40,365 bases of DNA from IMG/VR virus record IMGVR_UViG_3300036401_000511, positions 1 to 40,365 of that record. One strand, 5' to 3'. This document shows positions 2,493 to 38,928 of this stretch, piece by piece; the stretch's first letter is position 1, and each line of letters starts with the position of its first letter. This stretch comes from a virus. Made by a program: the position numbers and the translations under genes. Under the pieces are notes generated by a model, which was not told the origin of the DNA, searched no databases, and saw only the letters and a program-made list of their open reading frames with translations.

Positions 2493-2762
2493 TCAGCCGC
2501 GCGGCTTCGTCCGCATTTCACGTCGCAGAATCGCATTGATTCGTCCCTGGTAGCCCGGTCCCTGCTGCTTCAGCCAAGCCAGCACGTCCGCATCGATCCG
2601 CAAAGCAATGGGTTTTTTGATCGGGCGATAAAACTTGCCGACCACGGCGTTCTGCCATTTTGGGTCATTCGGGTCCTGCAGCGGAATATCGGAAAAATCA
2701 ACCTTCGAATCCGGCATTCTTTTCAAAGCCTGGACCTGGCGGTTGGCAGCTGTCTTCTTCAT
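2493..2762 (-). CDS. brnA: BrnA-family antitoxin, 89 aa
   Basis: The sequence has the BrnA pattern: an acidic DFSDIP segment, then FYRP.KKPIALR.DADVLAWLK, then GYQGRINAILR. The last two form the ribbon-helix-helix DNA-binding region that autorepresses brnTA operons. ATG at 2762 is the natural start and gives a family-typical length. No BrnT ribonuclease toxin is visible next to it, so this is an orphan antitoxin. It is transcribed against the structural genes, together with a DUF2442 gene, and probably arrived as a small mobile module between scaffold and coat. Confidence 0.85.
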   Translation of the reverse strand: MKKTAANRQVQALKRMPDSKVDFSDIPLQDPNDPKWQNAVVGKFYRPIKKPIALRIDADVLAWLKQQGPGYQGRINAILRREMRTKPRG

Positions 2763-2766
2763 GCGG

Positions 2767-3009
2767 CTACCTGGTGCGCAGAAATCCGGCGACGGACAGG
2801 TCCTCGTCGAGTTGCGGCCAGTGGATGCCATCTCCGCCGGGCAGAATTTCGAAGTGCTGCAACTGTTCCGGGGTGGCATTGGCGAGAGTGGCAAAGTAGG
2901 CCAGGGGAACCGTGATTTCGCGGCCATCCTCCAGCCGGACATGGATTGCCCCCTCCGGGAAGGTGACTTCCACGGCACGAGCGGAAAATTCAACGGGCAA
3001 AATGCGCAT
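2767..3009 (-). CDS. DUF2442 family protein, 80 aa
   Basis: Shows the DUF2442 signature: a beta-rich N-terminus with EDGREITVPLAYF, a PEQL helix, and a C-terminal G.GIHWPQLDEDLSV block. DUF2442 proteins usually form an operon with a DUF4160 protein and are treated as a putative toxin-antitoxin pair. Here the upstream partner is only a fragment (2990-3115). It ends 4 bp before the brnA start, so the two minus-strand genes are probably one transcript. Confidence 0.85.
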   Translation of the reverse strand: MRILPVEFSARAVEVTFPEGAIHVRLEDGREITVPLAYFATLANATPEQLQHFEILPGGDGIHWPQLDEDLSVAGFLRTR

Positions 3010-3115
3010 TCCAGGCCTCCAGCAGTACGGTTTGATGGTCCCGGACGATATGGTAAATCCGGTTCAGAATAGACGCAAGCCACCTATGATTTCTCGCCGA
3101 ACCGAAAAAACAACC
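2990..3115 (-). pseudogene. Truncated DUF4160-like gene remnant
   Basis: Forty-one codons in frame before a stop at 2990-2992, with no usable start codon before the in-frame stop at 3116-3118. The C-terminal pattern (IYHIVRDHQTVLLEAWNAHF) resembles the end of DUF4160 proteins, normally encoded just upstream of DUF2442 with a short overlap. That overlap is kept here (19-20 bp with the DUF2442 start). The 5' end seems to have been lost, possibly when the neighbouring endonuclease region was inserted. Family call is by pattern only. Confidence 0.6.
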
Positions 3116-3201: not shown

Positions 3202-3765
3202 GTGGCTAACCCTATTCAAACACCCCTCGTATTTAACGAGATCGTCTCGCAGCAGGAAGCTCGTGCCCAAGGCCTGCGCTGGTACTTTACCGGCAAGCCC
3301 TGCAAGTACGGGCATATTGCGGAACGCGGAGTGAGTCACGGTGTTTGCCGCGAGTGCAACCGACTGACCGGGAGCAATGCTGACAAGCGCGTGTACCGTG
3401 CGGAATGGGCAAAGCAGAACAAAGAAAAGCTGCAAGCCTACCTGAAGAAGTATCGCGCCGAGAAGAAAGACAAGTTGACGGCGCAAATCCGCGAATGGAA
3501 AAAAGCGCATCCCAAGTCGCACGCCGAACACAAGAAGCGTCAAAGCGAAGGACGTCGGCAGCGCATGATCGCCAAAGCCGGAAGGCCGCAGCCAGATGCA
3601 TGTGAGATTTGCAGTAAAGCGACGGATACGCTATGCTTCGACCACTGCCATCAGACAGAAGAGTTTCGCGGCTGGCTGTGCCAGCAATGCAATACAGCAC
3701 TCGGCATGGTGCAGGATTCGCCAGAGATTCTGCGCCGCCTTGCCGCCTATCTGGAACGTAGTTAG
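3202..3765 (+). CDS. HNH endonuclease, T4 endonuclease VII-like, 187 aa
   Basis: The C-terminal half has the recombination endonuclease VII layout: a CEICSK zinc knuckle, a DHCHQT core (catalytic DH.H), FRGWLCQQCN with the second CxxC, then LG..QDSPEIL..L..YL. The N-terminal third has another Cys-rich segment (C..GH...C..C) and a long basic helical middle, as in free-standing phage homing endonucleases. GTG at 3202 follows a GGAGGG ribosome site. It lies just upstream of the coat gene, whose codon 19 is followed by a 45-nt hairpin insertion. That recalls mobA and the gene 60 bypass in T4. Confidence 0.85.
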   Translation: MANPIQTPLVFNEIVSQQEARAQGLRWYFTGKPCKYGHIAERGVSHGVCRECNRLTGSNADKRVYRAEWAKQNKEKLQAYLKKYRAEKKDKLTAQIREWKKAHPKSHAEHKKRQSEGRRQRMIAKAGRPQPDACEICSKATDTLCFDHCHQTEEFRGWLCQQCNTALGMVQDSPEILRRLAAYLERS

Positions 3766-3811
3766 TTCTTTCAGTTCGGCGACACTGTCAAATCGCCCCA
3801 TCCGTAATCGC

Positions 3812-3851
3812 CCGCTTCCGGAAAGCGGTTCGAAGGCAGTACCTACTGCCT
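3812..3851 (+). promoter_or_regulatory. Two tandem hairpins in the coat-gene leader
   Basis: CCGCTT (3812-3817) pairs with AAGCGG (3823-3828) around a 5-nt loop. AGGCAGTA (3834-3841) pairs perfectly with TACTGCCT (3844-3851), in practice a 6-bp stem with a 6-nt loop. Neither is followed by a T-run, so they do not look like intrinsic terminators. They lie in the 128-bp gap between the endonuclease stop and the coat leader peptide. They may control or process the coat mRNA, or belong to the endonuclease insertion. Confidence 0.5.
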
Positions 3852-3893
3852 GAACCATCCACCCGAAAATCGTCACAAACGGAGACAATCCCC

Positions 3894-3956
3894 ATGTTTA
3901 ATCATCAAGGAGATCACCTCGGGCTGACGTCTTTCCAGGAGCGAATCGATGCCTAA
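3894..3956 (+). CDS. Possible 20-aa leader peptide coupled to the coat gene
   Basis: A short reading frame begins at ATG 3894 with GGAGA 11 nt upstream and ends with TAA at 3954-3956, overlapping the coat start (ATG 3949) by 8 nt. Its last codons carry the coat ribosome site CAGGAG. The arrangement would allow translational coupling. There is no independent sign that the peptide itself matters. Confidence 0.35.
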   Translation: MFNHQGDHLGLTSFQERIDA

Positions 3957-5226
3957 TACATTCGTTAACACCCAAGTGGTGCTCTGGAAGACGTTGGCCC
4001 GTTGGTGAACGCTCCCCTTCGGCTTAGTCTGAGGGGGAGACACCAACTGGAAAAACAACTTAAAATTCGCCCGCAACGTCGATCATTCCTATTCGGATGA
4101 GTTCGGCGCTACCGTCGGCAGCCATAACAAGCCCGGCCAAACCATCCAGGTTCCCAAACCGCAGCGCTTCACCGTCAACGCCTCGCAGGCCGCGGTGTTT
4201 CAGGGCATCACGAACCTGACCACGCCGCTCACCATGTCGATCCAGGCCAACGTCGCCTATCAACTGTCGAGCGCGGAGCGCTTCTTAAACGCGGATCATA
4301 TGTACGAGAAGTACGGCAAACCCGCTGCGGACGCCTTGAGCAATTACGTCGATTACCAATCGTTCCTGTTCGCCGTCAACACGTCGCCGAACTTCGTCGG
4401 CACGCCCGGCACGGCCCCGACCGACAACGGCATCTATCTCGATGCGGGCGTCATGCTCGACAACTTCGACACGCCCATGAACACCACCGACCGCATGGTC
4501 ATCGTCTCGCCGCAGATGATGGCGAACGCCGTGAAGAAGGATCAAACCCTGTTCCATGCGGGTCAGGAAATCGAGATGCAGTACCGCACCGGAACCGTCG
4601 GCGAGGCGCATGGCCTGCAGTGGTTTAAATCGCAGAACACGCCGACCACGACGGCCCCGACCTACGCCGGAGCGCCGGTTGTCTCGGGCGGCGCGCAGAC
4701 CGGCTCGACGCTCGCGACTAGCGGCTGGACTTCCGGCTCGCTGCCCGCCGGGACGCGCTTCACCATCGGCTCAGGCGCCACTGCAGTGAACACCGTGAAC
4801 GCGCAATCGCGCCAGTCGATCGGTGCGCTGCAGTCGTTCGTCGTCACCACGACCACCGCGCTCACCAGCGGCACGATCAATATCCCGGTCTATCCGGCGA
4901 TGTTCTCGACCGGCCAGTATCAGAACATCAGCCAGGCCCCGCCCGCCGGCGCCACGCTCAACGTCTGGGTGGCAAGCGGCGGCACGACACCGATCACCAC
5001 CGGCCTGGCCTTCCACGAAAAAGCGTTTGCTGTCGTCTACGGCAAGCTCGACGTGCCCGATAAAGGTGTGATCGAAGCCTACGGCGACACCGACCCGGAA
5101 ACCGGCGCCTTCATGCGCTATATGCAGTACCTAGACGGTGATAACGACCAGTGGAAGGTCCGTTGGGACGTTCTTTTCGGGTACGGAGGATTATATCCAG
5201 AATGGAGCTGCGTAATCGCTAGCTGA
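3949..5226 (+). CDS. Major capsid (coat) protein, P22 coat-like; gene interrupted at codon 19
   Basis: The product resembles the P22 coat family: N-terminal VNTQVVLWKTLARW, then KNNLKFARNV..SYSDEF, then the GQTIQVPKPQRFTV segment, and a C-terminal DKGVIEAYGDTDPETGAFMRYM...R.DVLFGYG..YPE block. Residues about 240-330 are Thr/Ser/Gly-rich, like an inserted domain. ATG 3949 has a CAGGAG ribosome site. Codon 19 (TGG, 4003-4005) is followed by TGA, 45 nt are extra (4006-4050), and the frame then continues unchanged to 5226. Without the 45 nt the protein is 410 aa, and the spacing from KTLARW to NNLKFA matches coat relatives with no gap. A simple ATG inside the later open stretch (4234 or downstream) would lose the conserved N-arm and is unlikely. 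Confidence 0.85.
4001..4050 (+). promoter_or_regulatory. Putative translational bypass element (45-nt hairpin insertion in the coat gene)
   Basis: Codon TGG (4003-4005) is followed by in-frame TGA (4006-4008), a second in-frame TGA (4030-4032) and then a matching TGG (4048-4050), after which the coat frame resumes with AAA AAC AAC. GTTGGTG (4001-4007) pairs perfectly with CACCAAC (4041-4047). Inside it, CTCCCC (4012-4017) pairs with GGGGAG (4034-4039), and TCGG (4019-4022) can pair with CTGA (4029-4032). A Shine-Dalgarno-like GGGGGAG lies 8 nt before the second TGG. T4 gene 60 bypass has the same parts: matched take-off and landing codons, a stop after take-off, a hairpin including the take-off codon, and a purine-rich site before landing. 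Alternatives are splicing or double TGA readthrough. Confidence 0.65.
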
Positions 5227-5234
5227 CAACAACT

Positions 5235-5275
5235 TACAGACATGTCCTGATCCATTACATCAGGACATGTCTGTA
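5235..5275. repeat. Perfect 17-bp inverted repeat after the coat gene
   Basis: TACAGACATGTCCTGAT (5235-5251) and ATCAGGACATGTCTGTA (5259-5275) are perfect reverse complements around a 7-nt loop. It starts 8 bp after the coat stop codon. No T-run follows directly (CTTTTTAG is 13 bp away), so it may be an mRNA-stabilising hairpin for the highly expressed coat transcript, a partial terminator, or a protein-binding palindrome. Confidence 0.85.
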
Positions 5276-5307
5276 TGTCCCACCGTACTTTTTAGATCGA
5301 TTCTCAT

Positions 5308-26863: not shown

Positions 26864-28156
26864 ATGGCCTCTCGCGCCCATATCCTTGCAATGCCTTTAG
26901 CGTCTAAGCTATTGTTGACTGCAGAGGAGGTGCAGCAATTGGCGAGACGCAGAGCGCAACACCCGACGGTTTTTAAAGAGAATGGCATGTGGGTGATTCG
27001 CCCAGTTATGGATGCGATCAACGAACAGGGCAAACTCGTACCCACGCGCCCGCGGCATTATATTGGGCCGGCGGCCGGCACCGATAAGCTCAGCAAGGAT
27101 GATGCCCAGGACATTGCCGATAATGGCGTTCTCAAACAACTGAACCGCTTTGTGCAACAGCCGCAGAGTATCGTGCGGATCGCGGGCTTTGTCGAGCAGA
27201 AGTTTATTCCCGAATGGGTCGAAAAGAAGAAGTGTGCCGGCAAAGAGCATTATCAGTATTGCCTCAAGAAGGCGATGCCGGTGATTGGCGACATTCGTCT
27301 GCGGGATTTCAAGGTCGGCGATGTGCGCCGGCTCTGTACTGTGTTGGAGCAGGAGGGGTGTTCGCCGAAGACCATCAAGAATGTGAAAACGGCCGTGGTC
27401 ACCGTGATCAACTTTGCGAAACAGGAAGGCTACTTTTGCGGTGACAACCCGGCGCAACTGGTGAGGCTGGAGGCCAGTCGACCCAAGGAACGCTACAGTT
27501 ATTCCTTCGAGGATGCCCAAAGGGTGCTGGCGGAACTCGGTACGCCCGTGGCGGAAATGGTGTTTACGTCCATGACAACCAGCTTGAACGTGGCGGAGCT
27601 CTGCGGTCTGCGTAACAAACGGCTGAACCTGACGGCAGCCACGCGCTTCTCGGCCGGCGAGGCCATCCCGCCCTTCTCTGCCCTGGTGCGCGAAAACTAT
27701 TACCGCAACACCTGGGGCACGGTGAAGACCGGCAAGCGGTATCGCACGGTCGGTCTGCCGGACTATGTCGTCGAGCGGCTGCTGCGACTGGCGGAATCCT
27801 CGCCTTTCAAAGGGCCGAATGATCCGGTGTTTGCCAGTCGTGCCGGCACGCCGATGGATGCGCATAACGTAAACAACCGAGCGTTCAAAAAAGTCAGCGA
27901 AAAGGTGAATCTACCGGTAACGTGGCATATCTTCCGGCACTCAGCCGCCAGCTTTGTCGAAGCGATGGACATGCCGCTGAGCGATCGCGAGAAAATTATG
28001 GGTCATGCCAACGCGCAGCAGACCATGCACTATACGCACTCCGATGTCGAGCGCCGGCGCAAGAATCAGAATCAACTGGCCGAGCGCATCATACCGGAAC
28101 GTGACAAGCGCATGCGCGATCTGATGCGCACGGATGTAGCAGGACCGAAGCAATGA
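26864..28156 (+). CDS. int: Tyrosine recombinase integrase, 430 aa
   Basis: A core-binding domain (residues about 105-205, VEQKFIPEWVEKKK, SPKTIKNVKTAVVTVINFA) is followed by the catalytic domain. Catalytic residues: H355 and R358 in WHIFRHS, H381 in GHANAQQTMHY, nucleophile Y390 in MHYTHSD, and a lysine around 288-291. The place of the first catalytic Arg (TG.R..E) reads TTSLNVAEL, with Asn242 where Arg is expected. The gene lies just upstream of the tRNA-Pro attP core. Together they make site-specific integration into a host tRNA-Pro gene very likely. Confidence 0.9.
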   Translation: MASRAHILAMPLASKLLLTAEEVQQLARRRAQHPTVFKENGMWVIRPVMDAINEQGKLVPTRPRHYIGPAAGTDKLSKDDAQDIADNGVLKQLNRFVQQPQSIVRIAGFVEQKFIPEWVEKKKCAGKEHYQYCLKKAMPVIGDIRLRDFKVGDVRRLCTVLEQEGCSPKTIKNVKTAVVTVINFAKQEGYFCGDNPAQLVRLEASRPKERYSYSFEDAQRVLAELGTPVAEMVFTSMTTSLNVAELCGLRNKRLNLTAATRFSAGEAIPPFSALVRENYYRNTWGTVKTGKRYRTVGLPDYVVERLLRLAESSPFKGPNDPVFASRAGTPMDAHNVNNRAFKKVSEKVNLPVTWHIFRHSAASFVEAMDMPLSDREKIMGHANAQQTMHYTHSDVERRRKNQNQLAERIIPERDKRMRDLMRTDVAGPKQ

Positions 28157-30582: not shown

Positions 30583-31026
30583 GTAAAGAATTCCAGCCCG
30601 GCGAGCGCACGCCGTAAAACCATTGCGTGTCCAGATGCCCGGCAAGGGCGTCGCCCCTGTTCAAAGCCCCTGTCTCAAAAATCAAAAATCCGCCTGTTTC
30701 GCGACGGCCAGTTTATCGGCACGCGCGACCGCTCGACCATCGAAGCGCTCTACGCGCGCTCGCTCGTCACGCTCGAGTACAACGCCAAAGGCTTCGTCGT
30801 CGCCGCCCATGAACGCCCCATCGCGCAGCACGACGCGGAGCCGAAACCCAACACACCCTCGCAGGGCTCGGTGCTGCGCCCGATGCGCTACTCGTTCGAA
30901 GACGCTCTGATCGAATGCCGGCCCTGGGACCTGCGCCGCCTGACCGGCAAGCGCTCGGGGATTCACTACGCCCCCGAAAGCCTGCGCCCGCTCTTCCTGC
31001 GCGTGGTGCTCGAGTGCCTCGCATGA
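30574..31026 (+). CDS. Hypothetical protein, about 150 aa, start unclear
   Basis: The C-terminal 115 residues look genuine (KIRLFRDGQFIGTRDRSTIEALYARS, YSFEDALIECRPWDLRRLTG), and the stop overlaps the methyltransferase start (ATGA). The N-terminus is doubtful: the frame is open back to 30433, but that region carries a terminator and promoter, and no ATG exists after GTG 30574. A non-standard start or a sequencing/frameshift error near 30680 are alternatives. Confidence 0.5.
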   Translation: MYAVKNSSPASARRKTIACPDARQGRRPCSKPLSQKSKIRLFRDGQFIGTRDRSTIEALYARSLVTLEYNAKGFVVAAHERPIAQHDAEPKPNTPSQGSVLRPMRYSFEDALIECRPWDLRRLTGKRSGIHYAPESLRPLFLRVVLECLA

Positions 31027-32357
31027 CCGCTGCTCCCGCCAAACCCCAGATCGGCATGCGACCGATCGACAAGCTCGTCCCCTACGCCCGCAATGCCCGC
31101 ACCCACGACGAGGGCCAGATCGCCCAGATTGCTGCTTCCATCCGCGAGTTCGGCTGGACCAACCCCATCCTGCTCGACGGGCAGAGCGGCGTGATTGCCG
31201 GCCATGCACGCCTAGCGGCAGCGCGTGTGCTGGGCCTCAAGCAAGTACCGTGCCTCGAACTCGCGCATCTCACGGAAGCGCAGAAGCGCGCCTATATCCT
31301 CGCCGATAACAAGTTGGCGCTGAACGCGGGCTGGGATCTTTCGCTGCTATCGGGCGAGCTGCAGGAGTTGAAAGCCGAAGAGTTCGACCTGTCGCTGCTG
31401 GGCTTCAACGACGAGGAACTGGCCGAACTGCTGGCGTATGCGCCCGGTACGGAGGGCTTGACCGATCCCGACGAATGCCCGGAAGTGCCAGCGAATCCGG
31501 TTACCAAACCGGGCGACCTGTGGCTCTTGGGGAAGCATCGGCTGCTGTGCGGGGATTGCACCAAGCAATCGACGCTAGAAGACTTCCTGAGAGACGCGCA
31601 CATGGAGGCCGTCGTGACTGACCCGCCTTACGGCATCAGCATCGTGAAGACCAAGGGCAATCCCGATCAGGGCGTCGTCGTCGGCGGTAAACCCTATGGC
31701 AAACAGAGAGTCGGCGTCGTCGTCGGCGGTGGTTCAGCGGGCGCAATGTATCCCTACGGCGGCGTAAAGAAGGGCGTCGGCGGCGGCGAGAACATCGTCA
31801 GGCCATCGCTTTATGCGCCGGTTGCGAACGACGACAACACCGATGCGGCGTGTGAGTTCTACGTCTCTGCGGTGGCTGTTGGTCTCAAAAATTTCATCAT
31901 TTTCGGCGGTAATTACTTCACTGCATTCCTGCCACCGTCCCGCTGCTGGATTGTCTGGGATAAGCAAAATAGCGGCAACTTCGCGGACGTGGAGATCGCG
32001 TGGACCTCGTTTGATAAAGGGAGCCGCTTGTACCAGTGGATGTGGAACGGATTAACGCGCGCTGGTGATCGCAAAACAGAACTTGAAAGTCGCGTGCATC
32101 CCACACAGAAGCCGGTCGGACTCTTCGAAAAGATCTTCTCGGACTTTCAATTCACGATCTGTCTGGACCCGTTTCTCGGTTCCGGCTCCACACTGATCGC
32201 CTGCGAGAAGACCGGGCGCACGTGCTATGGCATCGAACTCGCACCCGCCTACTGCGACGTGATTGTCACCCGCTGGCAGAACTTCACAGGCCGCGAAGCC
32301 GTGCTCGACGGCACCAAACACACCTTTGCCGAAATCAGTAAAAAGCACGCTGCCTAA
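31023..32357 (+). CDS. ParB-like domain fused to N6/N4 DNA methyltransferase, 444 aa
   Basis: Residues about 10-100 form a ParB/Srx-like domain (GMRPIDKLVPYARNARTHDEGQIAQIAASI, GHARLAAARVLG). Residues about 175-430 form a DNA methyltransferase with motif IV DPPYG at 200-204 and the SAM-binding motif I DPFLGSGSTLIACEKTGR at 382-399. That order (IV before I) marks the beta class, adenine-N6 or cytosine-N4. An 18-nt direct repeat (GGCGTCGTCGTCGGCGGT at 31671 and 31713) lies in a Gly/Val-rich insertion after motif IV. No restriction enzyme is encoded nearby, so it may shield phage DNA or act in packaging or regulation. Confidence 0.9.
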   Translation: MTAAPAKPQIGMRPIDKLVPYARNARTHDEGQIAQIAASIREFGWTNPILLDGQSGVIAGHARLAAARVLGLKQVPCLELAHLTEAQKRAYILADNKLALNAGWDLSLLSGELQELKAEEFDLSLLGFNDEELAELLAYAPGTEGLTDPDECPEVPANPVTKPGDLWLLGKHRLLCGDCTKQSTLEDFLRDAHMEAVVTDPPYGISIVKTKGNPDQGVVVGGKPYGKQRVGVVVGGGSAGAMYPYGGVKKGVGGGENIVRPSLYAPVANDDNTDAACEFYVSAVAVGLKNFIIFGGNYFTAFLPPSRCWIVWDKQNSGNFADVEIAWTSFDKGSRLYQWMWNGLTRAGDRKTELESRVHPTQKPVGLFEKIFSDFQFTICLDPFLGSGSTLIACEKTGRTCYGIELAPAYCDVIVTRWQNFTGREAVLDGTKHTFAEISKKHAA

Positions 32358-32839: not shown

Positions 32840-34327
32840 ATGGCATCGCGCGCTTTATCGATTGACGAAGACCTCGCGGGCGACCTCTCGGAGTTCTACG
32901 CCGACCCGCTGGGCTTCGTGCGGTTCGCGTACCCGTGGCAGGAAAAAGGCCCGCTGAAAGACTACACCGGCCCCGATACGTGGCAGCGCGAATTGCTGAA
33001 CGACGTCGGCAGGCAGGTACGTGAGCGCCGCTTCGACGGTATCCACGCAGTCGAGCCGATCCGCGAGGCCACGGCTTCGGGCCATGGCATCGGCAAATCC
33101 ACGCTGGTCGCCTGGCTGGTCGATTGGATCATGTCCACGCGGCCGCATGCGCAGGGCACCATCACCGCGAATACGTTTCCGCAACTTGAGACGAAGACGT
33201 GGGCGCAGATCCGCAAGTGGACGCAGCTCGCGATCAACGCGCACTGGTTTCATGTGAGCGGCGACAAGATGTACTCGAAAGACCATCCGGCGACGTGGTT
33301 CTGTTCCGCGCAGACCTGCCGCGAAGACAACAGCGAAGCCTTCGCCGGCCAGCATGCGGCGAACTCGACGAGCTTCTACATCTTCGACGAAGCCTCCGCT
33401 ATTCCGCCGCGCATCTGGGAAGTGGCCGAAGGCGGGCTGACCGATGGCGAGCCGATGTTCTTCGCCTTCGGCAACCCCACGCGCAACGACGGCGAGTTCC
33501 ACGCCATCACCTTCGGCAACAAGCGCAATCGCTGGCACCAACGAAGCATCGATTCGCGCACTGCAGCCTTCACGAATAAGACCATCCTCGAGCAGTGGAT
33601 CGCCGACTACGGCGAAGATTCGGACTTCGTGCGCGTGCGTGTCCGCGGCCTGCCGCCGCGAGCGTCGGACCTGCAGTTCATCGCCGGCGACAAGGTCTAC
33701 GAAGCGCAGCAGCGCGCCATACCCACGCGCTTCCCGGACGATCCGCTCATCCTCGGTCTGGACGTGGCGCGCGGCGGCTCTGCCTGGACGGTGGGCCGTT
33801 TCCGCAAGGGCTTCGATGCGCGCTCGGTGGCGCCGATCCGGCTGACGGGCGAAGAATCGCGCGATACCATGCGCGTGGCAACCGTGCTGGTCGAGGCGCT
33901 CGACCGCACCTGGAACGGGCAGAAGGTGCATACCGCGTTTGTCGATTCGGGCTTCGGCGGCCCGATCGTGAACCGCTGCCATCAGCTTGGTTTCAAGAAC
34001 GTCATCGAGGTGAGTTTTGGCGCGAAAGCGCCGGATCTGCATTACGCCAACATGCGCAGCTACATGTGGGCGAAACTGCGCGACTGGCTGGAGCACGGCG
34101 CGATTCCGAAAGACACGCGGCTCGAAGTCGATCTCACCGGCCCCGGCTACCACCACAACAAGCAGGACCAGCTCGTTCTCGAATCGAAGGAAGACATGGA
34201 GAAGCGGCAGGTCGATTCTCCGGATGACGGCGACGCGCTGGCGCTGACCTTTGCGCAGCCCATCGGGCCGGGGAAGAAGACGCCGTCCATGCGGGCGACG
34301 GATAAGCAGCCGTGGGCCTGGGGATGA
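32840..34327 (+). CDS. terL: Terminase large subunit, 495 aa
   Basis: ATPase motifs: Walker A GHGIGKST (residues 81-88), Walker B FYIFDEAS (179-186, D183 E184), and a coupling motif near FGNPTRNDG. RNase H-like nuclease: D308 in GLDVARGG, D369 in FVDSGFGG, and the D462/D463/D465 cluster in SPDDGDALALTF. All catalytic residues are present and the length is normal. It packages DNA through the portal encoded at 36733. Confidence 0.95.
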   Translation: MASRALSIDEDLAGDLSEFYADPLGFVRFAYPWQEKGPLKDYTGPDTWQRELLNDVGRQVRERRFDGIHAVEPIREATASGHGIGKSTLVAWLVDWIMSTRPHAQGTITANTFPQLETKTWAQIRKWTQLAINAHWFHVSGDKMYSKDHPATWFCSAQTCREDNSEAFAGQHAANSTSFYIFDEASAIPPRIWEVAEGGLTDGEPMFFAFGNPTRNDGEFHAITFGNKRNRWHQRSIDSRTAAFTNKTILEQWIADYGEDSDFVRVRVRGLPPRASDLQFIAGDKVYEAQQRAIPTRFPDDPLILGLDVARGGSAWTVGRFRKGFDARSVAPIRLTGEESRDTMRVATVLVEALDRTWNGQKVHTAFVDSGFGGPIVNRCHQLGFKNVIEVSFGAKAPDLHYANMRSYMWAKLRDWLEHGAIPKDTRLEVDLTGPGYHHNKQDQLVLESKEDMEKRQVDSPDDGDALALTFAQPIGPGKKTPSMRATDKQPWAWG

Positions 34328-35540: not shown

Positions 35541-35968
35541 AGATGAAGCGCAAGAAGACCAAGAAGCGTCCGTCTCGGGCGACGCAAGGACGGGATCGCG
35601 TTATGGACCTCATCACGGAAGCGCACTACAACATGAAATTTGGCTTGGCGTTTAACGAACTCGGGCCGCTGCCTATCAGCCGCGAAGCGATAGAGCGCTT
35701 TTTCAGGGACAACCCGCAGTTTGACCACGTCCCGGAATATATCTTCAAGGACCTTCAAAACATCGCGGAGACGAAAGAAGCCGGAACCTCGGAGACCAAG
35801 CCAGAACAAGCGTGCGATAGCGTTCCCGATGCTCCGAAGCCGAAGCGCTTCACTTTGTCGCCTGAGCAAGCAGCAAAGTTTCAAGAGATCGCCCAATTGA
35901 GCAAACCGTTAGTGCTGGATGGTTACGAAGTTTCTCCGGCCACAAAGGAGTTGACATGGCTAAATTAA
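35537..35968 (+). CDS. Hypothetical protein, 143 aa
   Basis: Very basic N-terminus (KMKRKKTKKRPSRATQGRDR), then a helical domain (LISREAIERFFRD-type segment) and an acidic linker. GTG 35537 overlaps the micro-gene stop; ATG 35543 is the alternative. Ends inside the start of the next gene. Confidence 0.55.
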   Translation: MKMKRKKTKKRPSRATQGRDRVMDLITEAHYNMKFGLAFNELGPLPISREAIERFFRDNPQFDHVPEYIFKDLQNIAETKEAGTSETKPEQACDSVPDAPKPKRFTLSPEQAAKFQEIAQLSKPLVLDGYEVSPATKELTWLN

Positions 35969-36520: not shown

Positions 36521-36733
36521 ATGCCCGCCAAAAGCATCGCGCAGCGCAGGCTCTTTAGCATCGCTGAACACGCACCGTCCGCGCTCTATTCGCGCAACAA
36601 GGGCCTCGCGAAGCTGCCGCAGCAAACGCTGCACGACTTCGCCGCCACCAAAGAGAAGGGCCTGCCCAAGAAAGTAAAGAAGCCGCACGCCTCGCAGCGG
36701 GTGATTCGCAACCACGGTAAAGACAACGACTAG
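36521..36733 (+). CDS. DUF3008-like small protein, 70 aa
   Basis: Pattern AKSIAQRRLFSIAEHAPSALY, then DFAATKEKGLPKKVKK matches small phage proteins of the DUF3008 type (SKAQ.R...DFA.TK.KGLP..V). Very basic. Stop overlaps the portal GTG by one base. Confidence 0.65.
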   Translation: MPAKSIAQRRLFSIAEHAPSALYSRNKGLAKLPQQTLHDFAATKEKGLPKKVKKPHASQRVIRNHGKDND

Positions 36734-38928
36734 TGCCTGATCCCACCGAATTCGATGAGCTGGACGTACCTGAGCAGGCCCGCAAATGCTGGCGCGAAGC
36801 GCTCGACCGCGAGCACGAGATCCGCGAAGCCTACACCAAGCGGCTGAAGTTCCGCGCGGGCGACCAATGGGATGCGGGCGATGTCTCGGCGCGCGGCAAG
36901 GACCGCCCCGCCATCGTCGTCAACCTGCTCGAGCAGCCCGTCCAGCAGGTCATCAACCAGAACCTGCTGAACCGTCCCGGCGGCCAGGTCTCGCCCGCCG
37001 ACGATGCCGCGAATCCGGACGTCGCGGAGTACTTGGAGGGCCGCATCCGGCACATCGAGTATGCATCGGACTGCCAGGTCGCCTACGCCACCGCCATCGG
37101 CTACGTGGCAAGCGGCGGCTACGGCTACGTGGGCCTGACGGTCGAGTATGTCTCGTGCGAATCGCTCGAGCAGGAAGTGCGCATCCGCACGATTGAAGAC
37201 CCGTCGTGCTGGGCGATCGACCGCAGCGCGAAAGAACCCGACGGGCGCGACATGCGCTGGGCGGTGGGACGGCAGAAGTTCTCGGTCGAAGAGTTTAAGC
37301 GCCGCTGGCCTGAGGCGCAGGTGATCGATGCGTCGTTCTATGGGATCGACGACACCTACCGCGACTGGGGCACGGCAACGGATGTCTGGGTCGGCGAATA
37401 CTGGCGGCTCGAATACAAAAAGCGCAAACTGCAGCGCTTCTCGGACGGCTCCACGGGCTTTACCGACGATAAGCAGTTTCTACGGCGACTGCCGCCGGGC
37501 GTGACGTCCTTGCCGGGCGATGCGAACCAGCGCGAAGTCGAGTATCCGCAGGTCACGCAGTACCTCGTCTCGGGCGCGGAGGTGCTGGACGAGACACCGT
37601 GGCCCGGCACGCGCATTCCGCTGTACGAAGTGATCGCGACCGAGTTCTACGCCGACGGCAAGCGCATCGTCAAGTCGCTCATCTCGGACGCGCTGCCAAG
37701 CCAGCAAACGTACAACTGCTCGGAATCGCTGAAGCTCGAAGCAGTGGTCCTCGCGCCGAAGCCGAAGTGGCTGGCTTCTTCCGAGCAACTCGCCGGACAC
37801 GAGGACCGCTGGAAAGCCGCGAATACCTCCGAAGACGGTGTGCTCTTCTACAACGGCACGCAGGACAGCAGAGGCAACCCGGTCCCGCCGCCCGACTGGA
37901 AAGTGTTCGTCCCGCCGGTGCAGGAGTTCACGCTCGTCTCGAACCAGGCGAAAGAAGACGTCAAAGCCACCACCGGGTTCTTTGATCCGGCATTGGGCGC
38001 GATGGACCCGCAGCGGCAGTCGGGTAAGGCGATCCTGGCATTGCAGCAGCAAACGGGCCAAGGCACGGCGCACTATGCCGAGAACCTGGCGCGGGCATTA
38101 AAAGCGCTCTATCAGGACGTGATCGACATCGACATCAAGCTGAACCGCCAGGCCGGGCCGGCAATGCGGCGCGTGACGAAGCCGAACGGCCAGCAGGCGC
38201 TGGTGCGCATCAATGACCCGGCGCAGGCCAAGCAGCTACTGCTCGAAAAGGGCCGGTACGAGGTGGTCGTGAGCGTCGGCCCGAGCTTCCGCACGCAGCG
38301 CGAAGCGGCGACGGCATTTATCGAGACCATCGCCTCACGTGATCCGCAGGGCTGGGCGCTGATCCGCGATCTGGGTGCGCGCATCAAGGAACCCGAGCTG
38401 GGGCATTACGCCGATGAAATTGCCCAGAGGTGGGTCCCTCCTCAGTTCGCGCAGCAGGAAGGGCAGCCACCCTTGCCGCCGGAAGTGCAGCAGCAGTTGT
38501 CGCTGGTGCAGCCCTTGACACAGAAGGTCAACGAACTGACGCAGATCATCACGCAGAAGAAAATTGAGGAACAGGGGAAGTTCGAGCGCGATCAGCAGAC
38601 GGAGCAGATGCGCTATCAGACCGAGCAGCTGAAGGCCTCGGCGCAGATACGGGTCGCTGAATTAAACGCGAAGAATGATCAACTGCTGGCGGAAGTGGAT
38701 GCGCGCGTGAGGCTGCTTGAATCGGCGGCGGATCGCGGCCACCAGATGACCATGCAGGTTCATAAAGCGGCCCACGAACACGGCATGGCGGCCGTCGAGC
38801 ACGTGCACGCCATCCACCAGGCCAAGGAACAGTATGCCCAGCAAGCCGATCAGCCGGCTGAAGCAGGCGGTTACCCGCCGCCCGCGAGCAGCCCAGACGC
38901 CGGCAGCGAAGCCGCAGCCGGAAGTTAA
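36733..38928 (+). CDS. Portal protein, P22-like, 731 aa
   Basis: Length and layout match P22-like portals (725 aa in P22). The N-terminal wing/clip region has FRAGDQWDAGDVSARGKDRPAIVVNLLEQPV, then VAYATAIGYVASGGYGYVGLTVEY and DPSCWAIDRSAKEPDGRD. The C-terminal barrel is a long helical coiled coil (residues about 610-720, rich in Gln and Glu). GTG start. The dodecameric portal forms the DNA gate for the terminase encoded at 32840. Its end overlaps the next gene by 95 bp. Confidence 0.9.
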   Translation: MPDPTEFDELDVPEQARKCWREALDREHEIREAYTKRLKFRAGDQWDAGDVSARGKDRPAIVVNLLEQPVQQVINQNLLNRPGGQVSPADDAANPDVAEYLEGRIRHIEYASDCQVAYATAIGYVASGGYGYVGLTVEYVSCESLEQEVRIRTIEDPSCWAIDRSAKEPDGRDMRWAVGRQKFSVEEFKRRWPEAQVIDASFYGIDDTYRDWGTATDVWVGEYWRLEYKKRKLQRFSDGSTGFTDDKQFLRRLPPGVTSLPGDANQREVEYPQVTQYLVSGAEVLDETPWPGTRIPLYEVIATEFYADGKRIVKSLISDALPSQQTYNCSESLKLEAVVLAPKPKWLASSEQLAGHEDRWKAANTSEDGVLFYNGTQDSRGNPVPPPDWKVFVPPVQEFTLVSNQAKEDVKATTGFFDPALGAMDPQRQSGKAILALQQQTGQGTAHYAENLARALKALYQDVIDIDIKLNRQAGPAMRRVTKPNGQQALVRINDPAQAKQLLLEKGRYEVVVSVGPSFRTQREAATAFIETIASRDPQGWALIRDLGARIKEPELGHYADEIAQRWVPPQFAQQEGQPPLPPEVQQQLSLVQPLTQKVNELTQIITQKKIEEQGKFERDQQTEQMRYQTEQLKASAQIRVAELNAKNDQLLAEVDARVRLLESAADRGHQMTMQVHKAAHEHGMAAVEHVHAIHQAKEQYAQQADQPAEAGGYPPPASSPDAGSEAAAGS

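Follow-up and report, generated by a model that had tools for sequence, protein, structure and literature searches.

An established case of programmed translational bypassing is gene 60 of phage T4, in which the ribosome stalls, releases its codon, slides and lands on a matched codon (PMC11194080; PMC5009743). A 5' stem-loop is thought to pull on the mRNA leaving the ribosome, and its disruption lowers bypassing (PMC11194080; PMC5009743). T4 also needs a nascent-peptide signal, the key one acting at a distance of about 25–30 residues from the P site (PMC5009743). The bypassed insert has been viewed as a protection of gene 60 against nuclease (PMC5009743), and a PNAS paper of 2011 is reported to have described the T4 endonuclease together with the 50-nt gap as a mobile cassette.

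Other systems are few. The byp elements of Magnusiomyces capitatus mitochondria are short inserts in protein genes that are skipped in translation; a mitochondrial genome holds 81 of them, which are described as independent of mRNA context and as not always having matched codons (PMC5009743). The terminase gene of Streptomyces phage Hau3 contains a candidate phage bypass with a Shine-Dalgarno-like sequence (PMC5009743). A paper from 2024 names only T4 gene 60 and yeast mitochondrial genes (PMC11194080). In the open literature we searched, which cannot prove novelty, T4 gene 60 and the Magnusiomyces mitochondria were the established cases and Hau3 a candidate. Efficient programmed bypassing in phage has so far rested on T4 gene 60.

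An insertion in the coat gene

We analyzed a stretch of viral DNA of 40,365 nucleotides, referred to as the window; the upstream endonuclease gene, the leader, the coat gene and its insert described here lie on its plus strand. Its coat gene starts with ATG at 3949. The first coding part (MPNTFVNTQVVLWKTLARW, codons 1–19, 3949–4005) ends on the Trp19 codon TGG (4003–4005), the proposed take-off codon, and is directly followed by a TGA stop (4006–4008). This stop opens a 45-nt segment (4006–4050), the proposed bypassed gap plus landing codon, which contains a second in-frame TGA at 4030–4032 and ends with TGG (4048–4050), the proposed landing codon. The coat frame resumes at AAA 4051 and runs to 5226. 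The downstream part matches the Pfam profile PF11651 (P22_CoatProtein, 1.2e-27), and an uninterrupted homologue, L002, matches the same P22 coat profile from residue 1 (2.7e-34). No in-frame start codon is present in the window between the insert and GTG 4195, and initiation at this GTG would drop 67 highly conserved residues matching the profile. An AlphaFold model of the coat protein (pLDDT 32) was too poor for use.

Comparison with related viruses confirmed that the 45 nt have been inserted into a gene whose homologues are uninterrupted. Eleven related viral contigs from seven lineages (L002–L006, L008–L010, L012, L013 and L028) lack the segment; in them codons 19 and 20 adjoin, giving a contiguous LARW|KNNLKFARN. 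The initial annotation, made without access to relatives, had described codon 19 TGG, a TGA, a matched TGG 45 nt further on and an intact coat frame, and had inferred a P22-type coat N-terminus once 4006–4050 is deleted. Both claims held, the latter since uninterrupted homologues have the predicted LARW-KNNLKFA junction. The check it proposed, a comparison with coat genes lacking the 45 nt, supports an insertion, and the case that would have refuted the bypass, relatives carrying the 15 codons as normal sequence, was not found in the 11 insert-less contigs.

The insert is carried by three lineages, represented by the window (with L001, identical over its available stretch), L011 and L007, and its length is 45, 45 and 44 nt, respectively. 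The L011 insert is identical to that of the window at 45 of 45 positions, with adjacent coat DNA being just 74–82% identical; a long invariant core is common to all three inserts, and the insert is more conserved than its coding flanks. Take-off and landing TGG match in frame and both coat parts are open in all three lineages. Changes in coat part 1 are mostly synonymous, and this part remains protein-like, because pS between carriers is 0.43–0.66 with pN of 0.02–0.11. Two of the three lineages, those of the window and L011, have a stop (TGA) after the take-off codon, and L007 has TGT there. In L007 a GTG at 4953 additionally opens a 407-codon frame into the coat. With UGU after the take-off codon and this GTG frame, L007 is the weakest case. 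It should be kept in mind that only three lineages carry the insert, that two of the inserts are identical and that the lineages are related.

Searching viral contigs for the exact insert core returned the known carriers only, and none were found in genome contigs. A shorter version of the core gave three matches (L030–L032), which are unrelated and were rejected as chance. Apart from the window, L011 and L007 were the only contigs with the leader motif. Several different coat queries recovered the same family of viral contigs each time and nothing among genome contigs. In annotated phages all coats were less than 60% identical, and no match to 3500–4250 was found at the DNA level.

RNA structures around the insert

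The insert is a near palindrome and folds into a take-off hairpin (4001–4047). The outer stem pairs GTTGGTG (4001–4007) with CACCAAC (4041–4047) and takes in the take-off codon; the inner stem comprises 11 bp (4012–4022/4029–4039) and is closed by a loop of 6 nt. Folding energies of the insert hairpin are -31 to -33 kcal/mol (z -4.2 to -4.6), and none of 200 shuffled sequences was as stable. A Shine-Dalgarno-like GGGGGAG is located at 4033–4039, 8 nt before the landing codon. The hairpin with its outer stem spanning the take-off codon had already been recognized in the initial annotation and was confirmed here, as was the position of GGGGGAG; the motif also forms one side of the inner stem. 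In L007 the outer hairpin appears broken in the column alignment; folded alone, the sequence re-pairs differently (z -2.0). We also scanned both strands of the window and about 85 other loci mechanically for matched codons, a gap, a stop and a reopened frame. Ranked by folding energy per base, the elements of the window and its relative L011 were at the top of 2,097 candidates, and no comparable element stood out at loci with related endonucleases.

A second structure, which the initial annotation had not mentioned and which adds to the T4 gene 60 likeness it had proposed, is formed between the leader and the coat gene. The 5' strand of this 5' stem-loop lies at 3915–3937 (CACC 3915–3918 plus 3920–3937) and the 3' strand at 3985–4007, reaching from coat codons 13–18 through the take-off codon. 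Pairing in the window comprises 17 bp with 3985–4001, extended by 4 bp between CACC 3915–3918 and GGTG 4004–4007. In the three carriers the leader pairs with codons 13–18 at -25 to -31 kcal/mol (z -4.8 to -6.5), whereas each of the eight insert-less sequences examined gave a z above -1; measured against dinucleotide shuffles, carriers are far outside the distribution and insert-less sequences ordinary. The long 5' stem therefore tracks the insert (3/3 carrier versus 0/7 insert-less lineages). Two pairs of the stem are compensatory, with synonymous changes on the coat side, although such covariation counts are small, coming from just three sequences of related lineages. The leader also contains a mini-ORF of 20 codons (3894–3956) that stops on ATGCCTAA and overlaps the coat start by 8 nt. 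Its stop is the same in all three insert lineages, and coat codon 2 is CCT in these lineages and never in insert-less relatives.

Two further structures near the coat gene were observed. A candidate H-type pseudoknot lies upstream at 3772–3797, with equivalents at L011 4719, L007 4711, L002 4848, L006 4794, L009 4823 and L028 2815. Its first stem (CAGT/ACTG) is near-constant across lineages; the second stem varies yet still pairs (GGCGA/TCGCC, GCCGA/TCGGC, TGAGGAA/TTCCTCA and GAGAC/GTCTC). It is possibly a regulatory RNA; the window has no Rfam match at gathering thresholds. A strong hairpin without a clear T-run (ACAGACATGTCCTGAT / ATCAGGACATGTCTGT) directly follows the coat gene at about 5226–5285.

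A proposed endonuclease-plus-bypass cassette

Directly upstream of the coat gene lies an Endonuclease VII-type (HNH) gene with a GTG start (3202–3765; PF02945, 6.3e-18), the proposed mobility gene of the cassette. Homologues occupy the same place in L011 (61% identity) and L007 (49%), so that such a gene directly precedes the coat gene in 3/3 carrier versus 0/7 insert-less lineages; in the insert-less relatives no upstream endonuclease gene was found between the scaffold and coat genes. As the lineages are related, this co-occurrence is suggestive. The gene had not been mentioned in the initial annotation and further strengthens the likeness to T4 gene 60. Free-standing homing endonucleases of T4-like phages likewise adjoin a conserved target gene (PMC2988022), but here the endonuclease is paired with an insert in the neighboring gene, homing itself being inferred.

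In the T4 control, mobA is followed by 60.1, which overlaps the start of gene 60; matched GGA codons, TAG, a hairpin and a 50-nt gap were likewise present. The coat locus shares with T4 matched take-off and landing codons, a stop after take-off, a take-off hairpin, a 5' stem-loop just upstream and a gap of about 50 nt. In both, a gene for an HNH-type endonuclease precedes the interrupted gene, and a small ORF runs into the start of the latter. A Shine-Dalgarno-like sequence before the landing site recalls T4 as well, but in the window it is buried in the inner stem, a point against the bypass reading. It differs in that the gene encodes the coat and not a split topoisomerase, the codons are UGG instead of GGA, 19 codons instead of 46 precede the gap, and the 5' stem is longer and formed with the leader outside the gene. 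Similarity between the window endonuclease (PF02945) and the MobA fragment annotated in T4 was not detectable. The window also lacks KKYK: no nascent-peptide signal of this type is present in the 19-residue coat part 1, the sequence of which is common to insert-less relatives. Because this part is so short and without a KKYK-like signal, another trigger of take-off would be needed.

We consider it very likely that the locus is a mobile endonuclease-plus-bypass cassette whose insert ribosomes skip by a hop between the two UGG codons; this hop is inferred, without protein, RNA or reporter data. The cassette would consist of the Endonuclease VII-type homing endonuclease gene, the leader strand and the 45-nt hairpin insert. 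Ribosomes would translate codons 1–19 and come to a halt on UGG, the A site being occupied by UGA and the insert hairpin lying in front of them, then release the codon and slide across the insert. During the slide the leader is predicted to pair with the emerging mRNA, first over 17 and later over 21 bp, and to displace the outer stem of the take-off hairpin; the timing of these pairings is inferred, as is the efficiency of the hop. The peptidyl-tRNA-Trp would re-pair on UGG 4048, and decoding of AAA 4051 would follow, yielding an uninterrupted coat protein. As has been proposed for T4 gene 60, the insert probably protects its gene against the nuclease that the cassette itself encodes, the target and activity of this nuclease being inferred as well. 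Bypassing is favored because relatives lack the 15 codons, because the L007 form has 44 nt, because no in-frame start precedes 4195, and because the 5' stem-loop and the adjacent endonuclease gene match T4 gene 60. The bypass postulated in the initial annotation is therefore supported by comparison over those alternatives that can be tested from sequence, with the hop itself unproven. Its statement that a bypass in a coat gene would be new is compatible with the open-access literature searched, in which we found no such case, although this is not proof.

Several other explanations have to be considered. Splicing of the insert from the mRNA, as a mini-intron of unknown kind or a bulge-helix-bulge intron of the tRNA type, would likewise preserve the coat frame whether 45 or 44 nt are removed and is not excluded by the data. 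We regard it as very unlikely: at 45 nt the insert is far below the size of self-splicing group I or II introns and shows no recognizable core of one, and Rfam gave no match in the window at gathering thresholds. Moreover, the helix is continuous across the 5' junction, without a 3-nt bulge, the presumed bacterial host is not known to possess such a splicing system, and splicing does not require a matched codon in frame, a stop behind it or a 5' stem ending there. Stop read-through or frameshifting, giving a coat with extra residues, could be invoked as the insert of the window and L011 is in frame and a single -1 shift in L007 would also reach the coat frame. Yet two in-frame TGAs would have to be passed in the window and L011, and relatives have no residues at the insert site. 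An extra protein segment is further disfavored because the L007 insert of 44 nt is not a multiple of three while its coat parts are intact, so that this form would need a different mechanism. There is little room for this explanation.

It is also improbable to a high degree that the coat gene is inactive or that a shorter coat arises by internal initiation. The GTG at 4953 of L007 speaks for the latter, but in the window the first in-frame start, GTG 4195, costs the conserved profile residues described above, and in all three lineages most changes in both coat parts are synonymous, which speaks against inactivity. Finally, the hairpins might act at the DNA level, either as branched structures on which the Endonuclease VII-type enzyme works or by forming a mobile palindrome, with bypassing secondary or inefficient. 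The Endonuclease VII-type family includes Holliday-junction and cruciform nucleases, and the near-palindromic insert would fit such a role. This reading leaves both the expression of an essential interrupted gene and the compensatory synonymous pairs with the leader unexplained, and it can coexist with bypassing; as a replacement for it we judge it very unlikely.

Within the preferred bypass reading, the other described systems differ from the locus. Unlike the many Magnusiomyces byp elements, the single element of the window is flanked by RNA structure and adjoins an endonuclease gene. The Hau3 gap is much shorter and located around a UUA codon, and no endonuclease cassette is described in the corresponding passage (PMC5009743). 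A bolder interpretation, towards which we lean by a small margin, is that the locus represents a second, independent origin of mobile endonuclease-bypass cassettes in phages, situated in a major capsid gene and with hopping driven by RNA structure, namely a leader-codon stem competing with the take-off hairpin; a nascent-peptide signal of the T4 type would play no part. If true, an independent case of the same layout would make endonuclease-plus-bypass cassettes a recurrent mobile element, allow testing whether RNA structure can stand in for a nascent-peptide signal, and show bypassing at work in a gene that has to deliver its product in quantity.

Phage context

The window contains genes for an integrase (26864–28156), a ParB-like/DNA methyltransferase protein (30915–32357), the terminase large subunit (32840–34327) and the portal protein (36733–38928), and we therefore assign it to a temperate P22-like phage. 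A second Endonuclease VII-type gene is located downstream of the coat gene in L011 (6291–6965), L007 (6301–6987), L008 (6280–6921) and L114 (6326–6970). Because it is present in carriers as well as in insert-less relatives, it is not linked to the insert. Between the scaffold and endonuclease genes, the minus strand of 2493–3083 encodes a DUF2442 protein (2767–3009) and a BrnA-type antitoxin domain, and an ORF at 10–648 weakly matches the IS110-type Transposase_20 domain (PF02371). A frame at 35789–35953 is 38% identical over 60 residues to coat residues 43–98.
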